From contig CAMEYM010000002.1 in assembly GCA_945947575.1 (NCBI GenBank), positions 1 through 64,000 on the forward strand: a DNA stretch of 64,000 nucleotides, read 5' to 3'. The first letter of the stretch is position 1, and each line of letters begins with the position of its first letter. Below the pieces are notes generated by a model that saw only the letters and a list, made by a program, of their open reading frames with translations, was not told where the DNA came from and did not search any database. Position numbers and translations under genes: made by a program. Shown piece by piece: positions 8,748 through 15,427 of this stretch. The stretch is from Rhizobium sp. Q54. GTDB lineage: Bacteria > Pseudomonadota > Alphaproteobacteria > UBA2966 > CAIVPW01.

Positions 8748-9065
8748 CTATCCGGTTGCTTCCTTCTCAACCCAAGCCAGGTAGTCGGGGTTGCCGGCCT
8801 CGATCGGCCAGGTGACGACGCAGGGCACCGTGTAGGAGTGCAGCTGCTTCACGCGCGCCACGACGCGGTCGATTAGGTCGGTGCGCGTCTTGAGCAGGAA
8901 CGCGACTTCCGCATCGTCCTGCACCTTGCCCTGCCACCAATAGAAAGAGCGGATCGGGCCGAGCACGTTGGCGCAGGCGGCCAGTCGCTCCTCGACGAGG
9001 GTGCGGCTGATCTTCTCGGCTTCGGCCTGGTTGGCAGCGGTCAGGTAGAGCGAGCACGCTGCCAT
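8748..9065 (-). CDS. cutA: Divalent-ion tolerance protein CutA
   Basis: A 105-residue trimeric ferredoxin-like protein with family hallmarks EERLAACANVLGPIRSFYWWQGK, here quoted in part as LAACANV and SFYWWQGK, then LLKTRT, VKQLHSYTVPC and NPDYLAWV. CutA was linked to copper tolerance in E. coli, but its molecular role remains unclear. It lies 10 bp downstream of ctaA on the same strand and is probably co-transcribed with it. Confidence 0.93.
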   Translation of the reverse strand: MAACSLYLTAANQAEAEKISRTLVEERLAACANVLGPIRSFYWWQGKVQDDAEVAFLLKTRTDLIDRVVARVKQLHSYTVPCVVTWPIEAGNPDYLAWVEKEATG

Positions 9066-9075
9066 GGCTTGGCCC

Positions 9076-10158
9076 TTACGGAATGATGTGAATGCCTGCT
9101 TGCGGGCGAACCCGCGCGTTGGTGACCGTGTAGGCGGTCGCCACCGCGATGCCGAACACGATCAGCGCGCCCGCCTGGTGCAATGCCCCGAGCGGCACCG
9201 GAACACCAAGCACGAGGGTGGCGATGCCGACCACGCCTTGCAGCGCAAACGCCAGCATCAGCCAGCGATACATGGCGCGGACGTCGTCGGGCAGCCGTAC
9301 ATCCAGCGAGCGGCCCCACAACAGGACGACGAAGGCGCCGAGGAACAAGCCGTACCAGCGGTGCAGGAACTGCACCGTCACGACGCTATCGAGGGGATGC
9401 GCGGGGAACAGGCCGGGCGGGATCCAGTGGCCGTCCATCTTGGGGAACGTGTTGTAGTCGAAGCCGGCATCGAGACCTGCGACCAGCGCGCCGGACAGGA
9501 CGAGCAGATAGATGAGGGCGACGGCGGCGTACGTGGCGACACGGAATCCCGTCGAGATCCGCACGCCCCATTCGTCGCCCGGCACCACCATCTGGGTGCA
9601 GGCCAGCCAGAGCATGCTGGCGAAGATCAGCACCGCCATGCCGAGGTGCGCGGTGAGAAGGTAGTGGCTGACGTCCGGGCGCTCATCGAGGCCGCTGGCG
9701 ACCATCGCCCACCCGAGGGCCCCTTGCAGCCCGATGAGCACGACGACGCCCAGTATGCGGAGGGCAAGTTGCCGGTCGATGCGCCGGGTCAGCCAGAGAA
9801 CAAGCAACGGCAGAGCGACGAAGACGCCGACGAACCGCGCCAGCAGGCGGTGCGTGTACTCGAACCAGAAGATGTACTGGAAGCCGGCGAGGTCCATGCC
9901 CTGGTGGACGAGCTGGTACTCGGGGAACTGGCGGTAATAGGCGAACTCCGCCTCCCAAGCCTCGGCCGACAGGGGCGGCAGGATGCCAGCGAGCGGCTTC
10001 CACTGGGTGATCGAGAGACCGGCGTGCTCAAGGCGCGTGACGCCGCCCAGCACCGCCAGGGCGAACACCAGCACGGCGGCGGCGAGCAGCCAGAGCCCAA
10101 GCGCGGTGCCGCGCGGCGCCGCTTCGGTCAGGTCGGTTTCGCTCGTCACGCTGGCCAT
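9076..10158 (-). CDS. ctaA: Heme A synthase (CtaA/Cox15)
   Basis: Inner-membrane enzyme oxidising the C8 methyl of heme O to the formyl of heme A for aa3-type oxidases. The 360 residues form about eight membrane helices. The conserved haem-ligand histidines are visible in LVHQGMDL, EYTHRLLAR, LTAHLGM, FLHRWYG and LHQAGAL, and GGVTRLEHAGLSI marks the type 2 (Cox15-like) proteins of Alphaproteobacteria. It needs heme O from CtaB, which is not in this window. It is followed by cutA after 10 bp. Confidence 0.95.
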   Translation of the reverse strand: MASVTSETDLTEAAPRGTALGLWLLAAAVLVFALAVLGGVTRLEHAGLSITQWKPLAGILPPLSAEAWEAEFAYYRQFPEYQLVHQGMDLAGFQYIFWFEYTHRLLARFVGVFVALPLLVLWLTRRIDRQLALRILGVVVLIGLQGALGWAMVASGLDERPDVSHYLLTAHLGMAVLIFASMLWLACTQMVVPGDEWGVRISTGFRVATYAAVALIYLLVLSGALVAGLDAGFDYNTFPKMDGHWIPPGLFPAHPLDSVVTVQFLHRWYGLFLGAFVVLLWGRSLDVRLPDDVRAMYRWLMLAFALQGVVGIATLVLGVPVPLGALHQAGALIVFGIAVATAYTVTNARVRPQAGIHIIP

Positions 10159-10427
10159 TTCCGCAACCCTATTCTAGCCACGGCTTTTGTCTAGGTGCAT
10201 CAAGCACATATGGGGCGCGGCGGACCTTTGGCCGCAGTGTCGCAGCGCGCCGCCTGTCGCGTCAGGATGCCCCACTCGGCAAAGGTGGATGGCAACTTCT
10301 GCCCGGAGTCGCCCGTGCCGGGCGCGCAAAGTCTGCCGCCTGGGCGCCGGTGGCGGCAGACATTGCCCCCTGCGAAAAAGCGCGGAATTCCTGCCAGCGC
10401 GCGCCAGCGGCCGGGGCTGCGGCGGTC

Positions 10428-10442
10428 TGGCACACCGCTTGC
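10428..10442 (+). promoter_or_regulatory. Sigma-54 promoter of flagellin 1
   Basis: TGGCAC-5 bp-TTGC matches the sigma-54 (RpoN) -24/-12 consensus with exact spacing, about 65 bp upstream of the flagellin start at 10507. The same element lies upstream of the second flagellin. The rest of the 10159-10506 gap shows no gene. Confidence 0.85.
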
Positions 10443-10506
10443 GTTGTCCCCGCCAGGCGCAAACCGTTGCGCTGAGTTGTTTGCCAGTAAGCCAGGAGTC
10501 CGTGCC

Positions 10507-11322
10507 ATGGCGATGTCTATCAATACGAACGCGGGGGCGATGATCGCCCTGCAGAGCCTGAGTGCTACCACCCGTAACCTCGAGACGACGCAGATGCGCG
10601 TCACCACCGGCCTGCGCGTCGCCGGTCCCAAGGACGACGCGGCGACGTTCGCCATCGCCCAGAACATGCGTGGCGACATCGCCGGCATGGGCGCGGTGAA
10701 GACCAACCTCGCCCTCGGCCAGTCGATCACCAACGTCGCCATCGACGCCGGCAAGGCCGTCGCCGACCTTCTCATCGAGATGAAGGCGAAGGCGGTGCAG
10801 GCCAGCCAGGAAGGCCTCGACACCGACTCCTACACGGCGCTGCACCAGGAGTTCACCTCCCTCCGCAACCAGATCGAATCGATCGTCGCGACGGCCGAGT
10901 TCAACGGCAAGAACCTGATCGACTCCGCCGCCACCGACCTCAAAGTGCTATCCACCGTCGACGGCAGCACGATCACTGTCACCAAGCAGTCGATCGACAC
11001 CACGACGCTCGGCATCCTGACCATCTCGCTCACCAATGCGACGGTCGCGGCCACTGCGCTCACGGCCGTCAGCCAGGCGATCATCGACGTCTCGAACGCT
11101 CTCGCGTCGCTGGGCTCGGGCGCCAAGCGCATCGACATTCAGGCCGACTTCACCGGCAAGCTGATGGACATCCTGAAGCAGGGCGTCGGCAACCTGGTGG
11201 ACGCAGATCTCGCTCAGGAAAGCGCGAACCTGCAGGCCTTCCAGATCAAGCAGCAGCTGGGCGTGCAGGCACTGGCCATCGCCAATGCCGGTCCGCAGGC
11301 GATCCTGTCGCTGTTCGGCTAG
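10507..11322 (+). CDS. Flagellin, short form, copy 1
   Basis: Filament subunit secreted by the flagellar type III system. The 271-residue protein has the conserved N-terminal D0/D1 region (MSINTNAGAMIALQ, then GLRVAGPKDDAATFAIAQ) and C-terminal D1/D0 region (QESANLQAFQIKQQL, then ALAIANAGPQAI). Only a short middle segment lies between, so the exposed D2/D3 domains are minimal. The start is the ATG at 10507 because MAMSINTN matches flagellin N-termini; the frame is open further upstream. It is about 85% identical by eye to the next gene. The sigma-54 site at 10428 implies late flagellar-class control. Confidence 0.95.
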   Translation: MAMSINTNAGAMIALQSLSATTRNLETTQMRVTTGLRVAGPKDDAATFAIAQNMRGDIAGMGAVKTNLALGQSITNVAIDAGKAVADLLIEMKAKAVQASQEGLDTDSYTALHQEFTSLRNQIESIVATAEFNGKNLIDSAATDLKVLSTVDGSTITVTKQSIDTTTLGILTISLTNATVAATALTAVSQAIIDVSNALASLGSGAKRIDIQADFTGKLMDILKQGVGNLVDADLAQESANLQAFQIKQQLGVQALAIANAGPQAILSLFG

Positions 11323-11487
11323 ACGAACGGCGCGCCGCAAGGCGCGAACGCACTGGCCGCGCGCCGATAGGTGCGCGGCAACCAAGGCGGGGCGCGATAG
11401 CACGGACATATCGCGCCCCCTCGCCTTCCGATTTCGGGTCCGACGTGCGCACAGGCCTGCGCGCGCGGAGCCCCGGTTCCCCCACCT

Positions 11488-11522
11488 GGCGCGTCGAGAA
11501 TTCTCTCGGCGCGCGCCTTTTT
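11488..11522 (+). terminator. Probable terminator after flagellin 1
   Basis: Imperfect hairpin GGCGCGTCGAGAA / TTCTCTCGGCGCGCC followed directly by TTTTTC, about 165 bp after the flagellin stop and before the second flagellin promoter. The interval 11323-11851 contains no gene. Confidence 0.5.
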
Positions 11523-11751
11523 CGGTCGCAAGGCAACACCTTCACGCCGCGAGCGGAGCGCGCGGGCGACCAGCGTCCGAACTCGTACAAATCGGCAGGA
11601 CTTGCTCGGAATCCTTGACGTGCGGCGGCAGGTTCTGCCGCAAGACACTGAGGTTTACGGGTTCTTCACGAATCCGAGCGTTTCATGGCAGCGCGCAAAC
11701 CTGGTGGACAGCCGCAGCCTGCCTCGGCGTCGAGGTGTGAACAGCGGTGGT

Positions 11752-11766
11752 TGGCACGGGGCTTGC
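11752..11766 (+). promoter_or_regulatory. Sigma-54 promoter of flagellin 2
   Basis: TGGCAC-GGGGC-TTGC, an essentially consensus RpoN site with correct spacing, about 85 bp before the ATG at 11852. Confidence 0.88.
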
Positions 11767-11851
11767 GATGACGGGGACAGCAAGCGAAGCGACTGCAGAA
11801 GTCGCGTGACACACGTGGCGAACTAGGACCGCCCTTTTTCGGAGACGCCCT

Positions 11852-12670
11852 ATGGGTATGTCGATCAATACCAACGCCGGCGCAATGGTCGCGCTGCAGA
11901 ACTTGTCGGACTCGACACGCAGACTGGAAATGACCCAGCTGCGCGTGACGACGGGTTTGAAGGTCAGCGGTCCGAAGGACGACGCCGCGACGTTCGCCAT
12001 CGCCCAGAACATGCGCGGCGACATCGCCGGCATGGGCGCAGTGCGCACCAACCTCGCCCTCGGCCTTTCGATCGTCAACGTGGCGATCGACGCGGGCAAG
12101 GCGGTCGCCGACCTGCTCACCGAGATGAAGGCCAAGGCGGTCCAGGCCAGCCAGGAAGGCCTCGACAGCGACTCCTACGACGCTCTGCACGAGGAATTCA
12201 CCTCGCTGCGCGCGCAGATCGAGTCGATCGTCGCCACCGCAGAATTCAACGGCAAGAACCTCATCAACTCGGCATCGACGGACCTCAAGGTCCTTTCGAC
12301 GGTCGATGGCAGCACGATCACCGTCAGCAAGCAGTCGCTCGATACGACGACGCTCGGCATCCTGACGGTCTCGCTCTCCGACGCGACGGTCGCAGCGACC
12401 GCGCTCGCGGCCATCAACACCGCGATCATCAACGTCTCCAACGCCCTCGCCTCGCTCGGCTCGGGCGCCAAGCGCGTCGAGATCCAGGGCGACTTCACCG
12501 GCAAGCTCATCGACATCCTGAAGCAGGGCGTCGGCAACCTCGTGGATGCCGATCTCAGCCAGGAGAGCGCGAACTTGCAGGCGTTCCAGATCAAGCAGCA
12601 GCTGGGTGTGCAGGCGCTCGCCATCGCCAACCAGGGCCCGCAGGCGATCCTGCAGCTGTTCAACCGCTAG
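11852..12670 (+). CDS. Flagellin, short form, copy 2
   Basis: Second filament subunit, 272 residues, aligned without gaps to copy 1 except for one extra C-terminal residue (ends FNR). Substitutions are spread along the protein and mostly conservative, so the pair is an old tandem duplication kept under selection. The start ATG gives MGMSINTN. It has its own sigma-54 promoter and a separate possible terminator, so the two copies can be regulated independently. Confidence 0.95.
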   Translation: MGMSINTNAGAMVALQNLSDSTRRLEMTQLRVTTGLKVSGPKDDAATFAIAQNMRGDIAGMGAVRTNLALGLSIVNVAIDAGKAVADLLTEMKAKAVQASQEGLDSDSYDALHEEFTSLRAQIESIVATAEFNGKNLINSASTDLKVLSTVDGSTITVSKQSLDTTTLGILTVSLSDATVAATALAAINTAIINVSNALASLGSGAKRVEIQGDFTGKLIDILKQGVGNLVDADLSQESANLQAFQIKQQLGVQALAIANQGPQAILQLFNR

Positions 12671-12691: not shown

Positions 12692-12758
12692 ACGGCGCGC
12701 CCCGCGCGCGAAGCGCGCCTCCTTAGAGGGGGCACGCCTTCGGCGCGAGGCGCGCCGT
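12692..12758 (+). terminator. Possible terminator region after flagellin 2
   Basis: A 10-bp inverted repeat (ACGGCGCGCC at 12692 and GGCGCGCCGT at 12749) encloses a second GCGCGC/GCGCGC hairpin, 22 bp after the flagellin stop. There is no clear T-run, so termination is inferred. Confidence 0.35.
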
Positions 12759-12831: not shown

Positions 12832-13491
12832 ATGCGCGCGATCCTGCCCATAGCCGCTGTGCTGGCGGTGCTGGCTACAGGTGCGGCCGGAGCGGCCGAC
12901 GTTGCCGGTATCGTGCGGGACGGCAACGGCGCGCCCGTGGCCGACGCGGTCATCTATGCGGTGCCGCGCAACCGGCCGGCGCCCGCGCTGCCCGCCCAGG
13001 GCGCAGCGCCCACCGCCATTGACCAAGTCAACTCGCAGTTCCCGTTCATCACGCCGGTGCGACGCGGCAGCTCGGTCGTCTTCCGCAACGCCGACACCTA
13101 CGGCCACACGGTCTATTCGGTCTCACAGACCAAGGTGTTCAACATCCCCCTGTCGCGCGACGTGGTGTCGGCCCCGGTCGTCTTCGACACCGCGGGCGTG
13201 GTCGTGGTCGGCTGCAGCATCCACGACTACATGCTGGCCTACATCCTGGTGCTCGATACCCCCTACTACGCGGTCACCAACGCCACCGGCACTGCCATCC
13301 TCAACAACCTGCCGGCGGACACCCATGACGTATTCGTCTGGCATCCCGGCATGACGGGGACCGCCACCGCGGTGCCGCTCGCCGTCGCCGACGGCGCGAT
13401 CGCCAACGCCGAGTTCCGGGTGCTGCTCAAGCTCGACGGTCTGTGGCGCATCGACCGCAACAATCCGGTCGGCCGTCATATCGCGCCGTGA
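12832..13491 (+). CDS. Periplasmic cupredoxin-like (methylamine-utilisation-type) protein
   Basis: A 219-residue exported protein with signal peptide cleavage near AGAAD (about residue 21). The C-terminal two-thirds is a cupredoxin-like beta-sandwich with a recognisable type I copper site: His92 in TYGHTV and Cys128-x2-His131-x2-Met134 in GCSIHDYML. A carboxypeptidase-regulatory-like segment (DVAGIVRDGNGAPVADAV) starts the mature protein. Similar proteins are often annotated as methylamine utilisation protein, but no such pathway is present here. It is 16 bp upstream of the adenylate cyclase gene, suggesting a shared operon and a sensing role. Confidence 0.75.
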   Translation: MRAILPIAAVLAVLATGAAGAADVAGIVRDGNGAPVADAVIYAVPRNRPAPALPAQGAAPTAIDQVNSQFPFITPVRRGSSVVFRNADTYGHTVYSVSQTKVFNIPLSRDVVSAPVVFDTAGVVVVGCSIHDYMLAYILVLDTPYYAVTNATGTAILNNLPADTHDVFVWHPGMTGTATAVPLAVADGAIANAEFRVLLKLDGLWRIDRNNPVGRHIAP

Positions 13492-13507
13492 GCGCGCCGA
13501 CGACCCG

Positions 13508-15427
13508 ATGCAGACGCTAAGCTTCCGCACCCGCATCCTGCTGACCCTGCTCGGCCTGATCCTGGCGGTACAGGGCACGGCGTTCGTCGCGGTGTACGTG
13601 GCCACCGGGCGCAGCGCGCGCACACAAATCGAGGCGGAACTCGGCGCCAGCGCGCGCGTGTTCGAGGCGCTGATGGAACGCCGCGAGGTCGAGCTGGCGC
13701 AGGCGGCATCGCTGGTGTCGGGCGACTTCGCCTTCAAGACGGCGTTCTCGCTGCGCCACCAGCCGACCATGGTGACGGCGCTGCGCAACCTGCGCAATCG
13801 CGTCGGCGCCGACGAGGCGGCGCTGCTCGACCCGGAACGCAACCTGCTTGCCGCCGATCCGGAGGTGACGGTGGCGAGCGAGCGCGTCACGTTCGGCAAT
13901 CTCATCGACCGCGCCGAGCGCACCCCGTCGATCACCGCGTCGGGCGTCGACTTCGTCGGCGACCGGCCGTACCTGCTGGTTACCGTGCCGCTGATGGCGC
14001 CGGTGCCGGTCGCGTGGATCTCGCTCGGCTTCGATCTGAACGATGCGCTCGCCGCAGAGCTCAAGGAACTGACCGGCGCCGAAGTGTCGATCGGCCGGAT
14101 CGAGGGCGGCCAGTTCGTCGTATACGCCTCGACCTTGCCGCCAAACTGGCGGGCGGAATTGAGTCAACAGCCGGCGCGCGGCAGCTGGACGCGTGGCTCG
14201 ATCAGCGATGTCACCATCGGCGGCGAGCCGTACGTCACCCTACTGTCGCCGCTCGGCGAATTCATCGGCAGCCCGCTCGAGGTGGTGCTGCAGCGGCCGC
14301 TCAACGAAGCGATGGCGAGCTACCGCCAGCTGCGGTTGTTCCTCGGCCTGCTGACCGCGGCGGGCCTACTGATCTCAGCGATCGGCGCGGGCCTTATCGC
14401 GCGGAACGTGACGCTGCCGATCCGCCGCGTCGTCGAGGCGGTGGAGAAGGTCGCCGGCGGCGACTACTCGGTGACCGTAGGTGTCCATCGCACCGACGAA
14501 CTCGGTCAGCTCGCCACCGCGGTCAACAAGATGTCCAACGACCTGATGGAGCGCGATCGCGCCCGCGAACTGCTCGGCAAAATGGTCTCCCGGCAGGTGG
14601 CGACCGAGCTCCTGGGCCGCCGTCTCGAGCTCGGTGGCGAGCAGCGCGTGGTGACCGTTTTGTTCGCCGACATTCGCGGCTTCACTGGCATGAGCCAGAA
14701 CTATCCGCCGGCCGAGCTCGTCTCGGTGCTGAACGGGTATCTGACCGCGCTATCCGACGTGGTCGAGCGCCACGGCGGCATCGTCGATAAGTACATCGGC
14801 GACGCCATCATGGCCGTGTTCGGCGCACCCATTCATCAGCCCGACCACGCGGCGCGCGCGGTGAGTGCGGCGCTCGCCATGCATCGCTCGCTCGATGACC
14901 TCAACCACGCCCTGGTCGAGCGGGGCCGGCCGCGCGTCGAGTTCGGCATCGGCATCAACACTGCGACGGTCGTGGTCGGCAACATGGGCTCGGTGCGCCG
15001 CCTCAACTATACGGTGATCGGCAACGGCGTGAACCTCGCGGCACGGGTCGAGAAGCTGACGCGCGAGTACGACGTGCCGATCGTCGTTACCCAGAGCACC
15101 CAGAGCGAGGCGCCGGGATTCCTGTTCCGCGAGCTCGACCGCGTGCGCGTCAAAGGCCGCGACGAGGCAGTGCGCGTGTTCGAGCCGCTCGGCGAGGCGA
15201 GCTCGTTCGGCGAGGAGAGCCTGCAGCGTCTGGAGAGCTGGCACGCTGCCCTCAAGCGCTATCGCAGCCGCGACTGGGCCGGCGCCGACAGCATCCTCGC
15301 CGACCTTCAGGAGGGTCAGCAGGACTCGCTGCTCTACGCCATCTATCGCGCCCGCATCGAGACGCTGCGTCTGGCGCCGCCGGGGGCGGCGTGGGACGGG
15401 ACGGTCCAGACGCCGGGAGTGTCCTAG
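13508..15427 (+). CDS. Membrane adenylate cyclase, class IIIb, with periplasmic sensor and HAMP
   Basis: A 639-residue receptor cyclase making cAMP. It has TM1 at about residues 10-32, a periplasmic Cache-like sensor to about 275, TM2 at about 278-302, a HAMP domain to about 355, and the cyclase domain at about 375-560. Metal-binding Asp388 (FADIRGFTG) and Asp432 (DKYIGDAIMAVFG), adenine-specific Lys428, the Thr of NYTVIGNGVNLAAR, and the transition-state Asn and Arg are all visible. The Thr in place of Asp marks class IIIb, a group often stimulated by bicarbonate. Its ATG follows the cupredoxin gene by 16 bp. Its stop overlaps that of ydcF. Confidence 0.92.
   Translation: MQTLSFRTRILLTLLGLILAVQGTAFVAVYVATGRSARTQIEAELGASARVFEALMERREVELAQAASLVSGDFAFKTAFSLRHQPTMVTALRNLRNRVGADEAALLDPERNLLAADPEVTVASERVTFGNLIDRAERTPSITASGVDFVGDRPYLLVTVPLMAPVPVAWISLGFDLNDALAAELKELTGAEVSIGRIEGGQFVVYASTLPPNWRAELSQQPARGSWTRGSISDVTIGGEPYVTLLSPLGEFIGSPLEVVLQRPLNEAMASYRQLRLFLGLLTAAGLLISAIGAGLIARNVTLPIRRVVEAVEKVAGGDYSVTVGVHRTDELGQLATAVNKMSNDLMERDRARELLGKMVSRQVATELLGRRLELGGEQRVVTVLFADIRGFTGMSQNYPPAELVSVLNGYLTALSDVVERHGGIVDKYIGDAIMAVFGAPIHQPDHAARAVSAALAMHRSLDDLNHALVERGRPRVEFGIGINTATVVVGNMGSVRRLNYTVIGNGVNLAARVEKLTREYDVPIVVTQSTQSEAPGFLFRELDRVRVKGRDEAVRVFEPLGEASSFGEESLQRLESWHAALKRYRSRDWAGADSILADLQEGQQDSLLYAIYRARIETLRLAPPGAAWDGTVQTPGVS

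Follow-up and report, generated by a model that had tools for sequence, protein, structure and literature searches.

An exported cupredoxin encoded with a dCache receptor adenylate cyclase: a candidate periplasmic co-receptor in Proteobacteria

In the genome of Rhizobium sp. Q54, a gene for an exported copper-type protein directly precedes a gene for a transmembrane adenylate cyclase, raising the question of whether a periplasmic cupredoxin takes part in controlling a cytoplasmic second messenger. The window analysed here is a stretch of 64,000 nucleotides of that genome. The original prediction regarded the two genes as one operon, in which the cupredoxin could report copper or redox state to the cyclase. 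Both open reading frames were found where that prediction placed them, in the same orientation and 16 bp apart, and the arrangement is indeed operon-like. The features of the locus are as follows (positions in the window, strand).

12741..12757, + strand: hairpin resembling a terminator, situated after the upstream flagellin gene and ahead of the cupredoxin gene (by count not above chance, 1 found, 1.2 expected)
12832..13491, + strand: exported cupredoxin of 219 aa (open reading frame, domain search, profile and model), with a predicted signal peptide at residues ~1-21, a type-1 copper domain at ~60-142 and a C-terminal carboxypeptidase-regulatory-like beta domain
13508..15427, + strand: receptor adenylate cyclase of 639 aa, composed of TM1, dCache_3, TM2, HAMP and a class IIIb cyclase domain
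13625..14287, + strand: dCache_3 sensor domain in the periplasm; its subtype is almost confined to cupredoxin-bearing genomes
14393..14545, + strand: HAMP domain (domain search)
14648..15169, + strand: class III nucleotide cyclase catalytic domain with D388, K428, D432, T502, N509 and R513

Pfam and NCBIfam searches of the 219-aa protein returned no cupredoxin match. Its AlphaFold2 model (pLDDT 89, from an input of 35 family sequences; the alignment behind the structure models took rows from genome loci only, plasmid-derived rows being left out) had amicyanin, purple cupredoxin and the type-1 copper domain of NirK as its top Foldseek matches (E 5e-6 to 2e-5), and pseudoazurin was also among the structural matches. 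The match to amicyanin (E 5e-6, probability 1.00) covered ~90 residues and displayed the Greek-key beta-fold. NirK type-1 copper domains and amicyanin were found by sequence as well with the cupredoxin family profile, and the C..H..M ligand columns coincided in the NirK alignments shown by that search. His92, Cys128, His131 and Met134, which the original prediction had numbered exactly, make up an amicyanin-type ligand set that is invariant in the 35 aligned homologues; ligand loss in close homologues had been named as a point against the prediction, and all four ligands are kept in 35 of 35. The 219-aa protein is, as judged from the model and the conserved residues, an exported protein with a putative type-1 copper site and a predicted cupredoxin fold. 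It has this fold and the C-x2-H-x2-M ligand loop in common with amicyanin, pseudoazurin and the NirK type-1 domains. In contrast to them, it carries an extra C-terminal domain, is linked to a receptor, and has no matched dehydrogenase or reductase partner. The extra domain, absent from the earlier description, was detected by the domain search as CarboxypepD_reg-like.

The description of the second protein as a receptor cyclase with a periplasmic sensor, a HAMP domain and all class IIIb catalytic residues was borne out by both domains and residues. The domain search assigned residues 40-260 to dCache_3, 296-346 to HAMP and 381-554 to Guanylate_cyc. dCache_3 (PF14827) scored 38.3 bits against a cut-off of 25.7 and sits between two transmembrane helices. 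The sensor model (pLDDT 88) adopts a two-lobed Cache fold with dCache structural matches, and a comparison of the sensor with solved chains by sequence found no relation. We searched the sensor for conserved His, Cys or Met residues and found none, so that any metal site of the system lies in the cupredoxin; a copper site within the sensor itself is ruled out on the same ground. The catalytic set is complete, comprising the two metal-binding aspartates (D388 and D432), the purine pair (K428 and T502) and the transition-state pair (N509 and R513), and alignment with the CyaC and CyaB structures revealed the class IIIb signature, Thr at the Asp position. K428 and T502 are adenylate-specific, and the output of the cyclase should be cAMP. 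The catalytic residues, including the Lys and Thr, are common to the class IIIb receptor adenylate cyclases CyaC, CyaB and CyaB1, whereas the window cyclase differs from these in having a dCache_3 sensor paired with a cupredoxin.

Among genomes of the same order, the cupredoxin gene lies directly upstream in 7 of the 7 that carry a full-length orthologous cyclase, and two divergent cyclases have a cupredoxin one small gene away. Four genomes (G001, G006, G012 and G013) possess neither gene, and another (G014) gave only a weak, partial cupredoxin-like match. The cupredoxin of G002 reaches the end of its contig, which hides the neighbouring gene. Searches of these genomes also gave dozens of matches to further class III cyclases with no adjoining cupredoxin, which indicates that the link is not to the catalytic domain. 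The original prediction asked whether homologous cyclases lack the cupredoxin neighbour; those with a homologous sensor keep it. In G008, two tandem cupredoxin copies stand ahead of a single cyclase (L053 6800-8159).

A profile of the sensor was then the means of following the pair through 385 genomes of the class and 388 of the phylum (~770 in total). The class sample yielded 14 sensor matches, all with E of 1e-43 or stronger at a limit of 1e-12, and 13 of them adjoin a cupredoxin. Over both samples, 54 of 64 sensor matches are immediately downstream of a cupredoxin gene, and two more lie on its other side in receptor-cupredoxin-receptor clusters (G606 and, by coordinates, G705), giving 56 of 64 beside a cupredoxin; for 7 of 64 the cupredoxin is elsewhere in the genome, and for one (G290) there is none. 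In the 388 phylum genomes, both components were found in 46, the sensor only in 1, the cupredoxin only in 7 and neither in 334 (Fisher p 5e-51, which is not a true probability because the genomes share ancestry). The intergenic gap of 45 pairs has a median of 1 bp, and many pairs overlap. The sensors of the receptors adjoining a cupredoxin across class and phylum are homologous to that of the window cyclase. Chance adjacency is ruled out by the conservation at the order level together with the co-occurrence in class and phylum.

The receptors found in this way do not share one output. Most of the cupredoxin-paired dCache receptors end in GGDEF-EAL. Adenylate cyclase output beside a cupredoxin occurs in the order of the window and in two genomes of another class (G447 and G648), and histidine kinase output in G331. 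Where the sensor has diverged strongly, the receptor near the cupredoxin is of another kind again: a PAS hybrid histidine kinase, beyond a MauG-type peroxidase gene, in both G410 and G436, and a Ser/Thr kinase in G526. A partnership specific to cyclases is ruled out, as other class III cyclases are unpaired and most partners of the cupredoxin are GGDEF-EAL proteins. The coupling proposed originally is therefore strongly supported as a pairing, but the tie is to the dCache sensor and not to adenylate cyclases: the cupredoxin follows the sensor through output swaps, of which adenylate cyclase looks like one. The nine adenylate-cyclase members group together in the sensor tree (support 98/97); the cupredoxin tree requires two changes for them, in a part with weak support. 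The trees fit a single acquisition of the cyclase output by an ancestor of the c-di-GMP type, with the root unproven. For 30 GGDEF-EAL pairs, the partial distance correlation between cupredoxin and sensor given EAL was 0.54 (0 of 2000 permutations), and that between cupredoxin and EAL given the sensor was -0.14; as EAL is under different evolutionary constraints, this sensor-specific co-divergence is supportive and not proof. In most GGDEF-EAL members the GGDEF domain is degenerate, and the EAL motif (EALxRW) is intact in nearly all, so most of them are probably phosphodiesterases.

The surroundings of the pair vary among lineages. Two tandem flagellin genes lie just upstream of the cupredoxin gene in the window (10195-12670). 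The pair likewise follows flagellin genes in G004 and G005 and two ORFs of matching size in G003, and G008 and G009 have no flagellin genes ahead of the pair. The position just downstream of flagellin genes in this genus and in G005 is no more than a contextual hint at motility. Minus-strand ORFs at 8748-10158 of the window, less than 5 kb from the cupredoxin gene, resemble CutA1 and CtaA by eye; CutA1 is concerned with divalent-cation tolerance, and CtaA is haem A synthase. Genes for MauG-type di-haem peroxidases directly follow divergent cupredoxins (L116 3681-4694, L117 5401-5739 and L118 5079-7330), and in two of these three cases the peroxidase gene separates the cupredoxin from a hybrid kinase. 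DUF3034 genes accompany the cupredoxin in L020 (6533-8510), L021 (6509-8552), L023 (6216-8378) and L127 (3958-5538), with a truncated globin gene as well in the first three, and both are possibly part of the same cupredoxin system. At L129 (3706-6336), an unpaired cupredoxin gene stands between a gene for a PKHD-type 2OG-Fe(II) oxygenase and a 403-aa ORF without a Pfam match.

To our knowledge, cupredoxins are known as electron carriers and not as sensory co-receptors. A precedent for the arrangement is LuxP-LuxQ, in which a periplasmic protein is likewise encoded with a dCache receptor and the signal of LuxQ arrives via periplasmic LuxP, a protein of the sugar-binding type that serves for AI-2. 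The periplasmic domain of LuxQ was among the best structural matches to our sensor (TM-score 0.67 by target length), and, by analogy, the cupredoxin may be to its receptor what LuxP is to LuxQ. Our pair shares with such systems a genetic link between periplasmic protein and receptor that is conserved among genomes, but the partner here is a cupredoxin and not a sugar-binding-type protein. Homologues of the cupredoxin (~40-48% identity) are found in database entries named 'methylamine utilization protein', mostly beside genes for EAL-domain or cache-domain receptors; on plasmids of Caballeronia, Comamonas and Novosphingobium, too, a cupredoxin, often so annotated, is followed by a cache/EAL receptor. 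The label looks unfounded, as these neighbours are receptors and not mau genes, and a role in methylamine utilization was rejected because the neighbours do not fit. Methylamine dehydrogenase (PF06433) had no match in the genome of the window, but the control was silent everywhere too. A search of the open-access literature found no published description of the cupredoxin-receptor pair. The closest published system found there is CHASE4 GGDEF-EAL signalling in P. aeruginosa, where PA2072/IsmP and PA14_37690 respond to metals, copper included, that are reported to bind CHASE4 directly (PMC13277305). There, too, the sensor is a periplasmic Cache-like domain, which ties metals to c-di-GMP signalling; compared by description with the window sensor, they differ in that the metal is reported to sit on the sensor itself, and a cupredoxin is unmentioned (PMC13277305).

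The best reading of the locus, to which we give a probability of roughly 0.6, is that the periplasmic cupredoxin is a co-receptor of the transmembrane dCache receptor and that its copper or redox state gates the output. The two genes would then encode a single transmembrane signalling unit, with the exported cupredoxin and its single type-1 copper site serving as the periplasmic co-receptor. One state of the cupredoxin (copper-loaded or apo; Cu(II) or Cu(I)) would bind or release the dCache sensor, and HAMP would relay the change in the sensor to the cyclase, thereby setting cAMP synthesis. In this scheme we infer that the proteins touch, that the signal is copper or redox state, in which direction it acts and how it affects cAMP. 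The co-receptor model is based on the ligands, the fold, the adjacency, the co-occurrence, the persistence of the pair through output swaps and the sensor-specific co-divergence. Against it stand the seven cases in which the pair is split and the related receptor of G290, for which no cupredoxin was detected. Moreover, some cupredoxins are unpaired and have other neighbours (genes for DUF3034, truncated globin, redoxin or MauG-type proteins), and hence the cupredoxin may also serve elsewhere.

Such redox companions in some lineages (MauG-type peroxidase, truncated globin and redoxin) would suit a cupredoxin that carries electrons or buffers copper under shared regulation and never touches the receptor, the latter sensing a small ligand of its own. 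Binding of small molecules, amino acids among them, is common for dCache domains, and the dCache structural neighbours of the sensor take amino acids, purines or organic acids as ligands; the receptor could thus bind one of its own. Nevertheless, no fixed redox enzyme goes with the pair, the pair outlasts the exchange of output domains, and co-divergence of the cupredoxin was seen with the sensor alone. We regard this explanation as rather unlikely. We think it improbable that the cupredoxin is a co-receptor for something other than copper or redox state (e.g., NO, a different metal or an organic ligand) and that its copper site is structural: the full type-1 ligand set is invariant across distant members of the phylum, as is typical of redox-active copper, even though NO or oxygen could suit the truncated globin and DUF3034 genes that accompany it in Burkholderiales, and the C-terminal carboxypeptidase-regulatory-like domain may speak for such a reading. 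Signalling could also run from the inside out in the style of LapD-LapG, with the cytoplasmic state of the receptor controlling capture and release of the periplasmic cupredoxin. Many GGDEF-EAL members do have a degenerate GGDEF domain and a LapD-like HAMP-GGDEF-EAL layout. The EAL domain of LapD, however, is catalytically dead, whereas the EAL signature is intact in nearly all GGDEF-EAL members here, on which ground a LapD-like mechanism was rejected, and the adenylate cyclase, histidine kinase and Ser/Thr kinase outputs produce signals; this possibility is accordingly very remote.

Returning to the co-receptor reading, the cNMP-binding domain has 22 matches in the genome of the window, which at 2.5 Mb is densely supplied with proteins that could receive cAMP. 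Beyond this locus, we lean slightly towards a widespread and undescribed proteobacterial module, in which the cupredoxin would sense metal or redox state as the co-receptor to a dCache receptor dedicated to it, and in which at least four outputs could replace one another, namely cAMP synthesis, c-di-GMP turnover, His phosphorelay and Ser/Thr phosphorylation. If this is genuinely the case, it would explain the gene group now labelled 'methylamine utilization protein' and would provide a possible signal for many orphan c-di-GMP enzymes and cyclases. It would also allow a direct test of how copper or redox conditions in the envelope might be passed on to cAMP and c-di-GMP.
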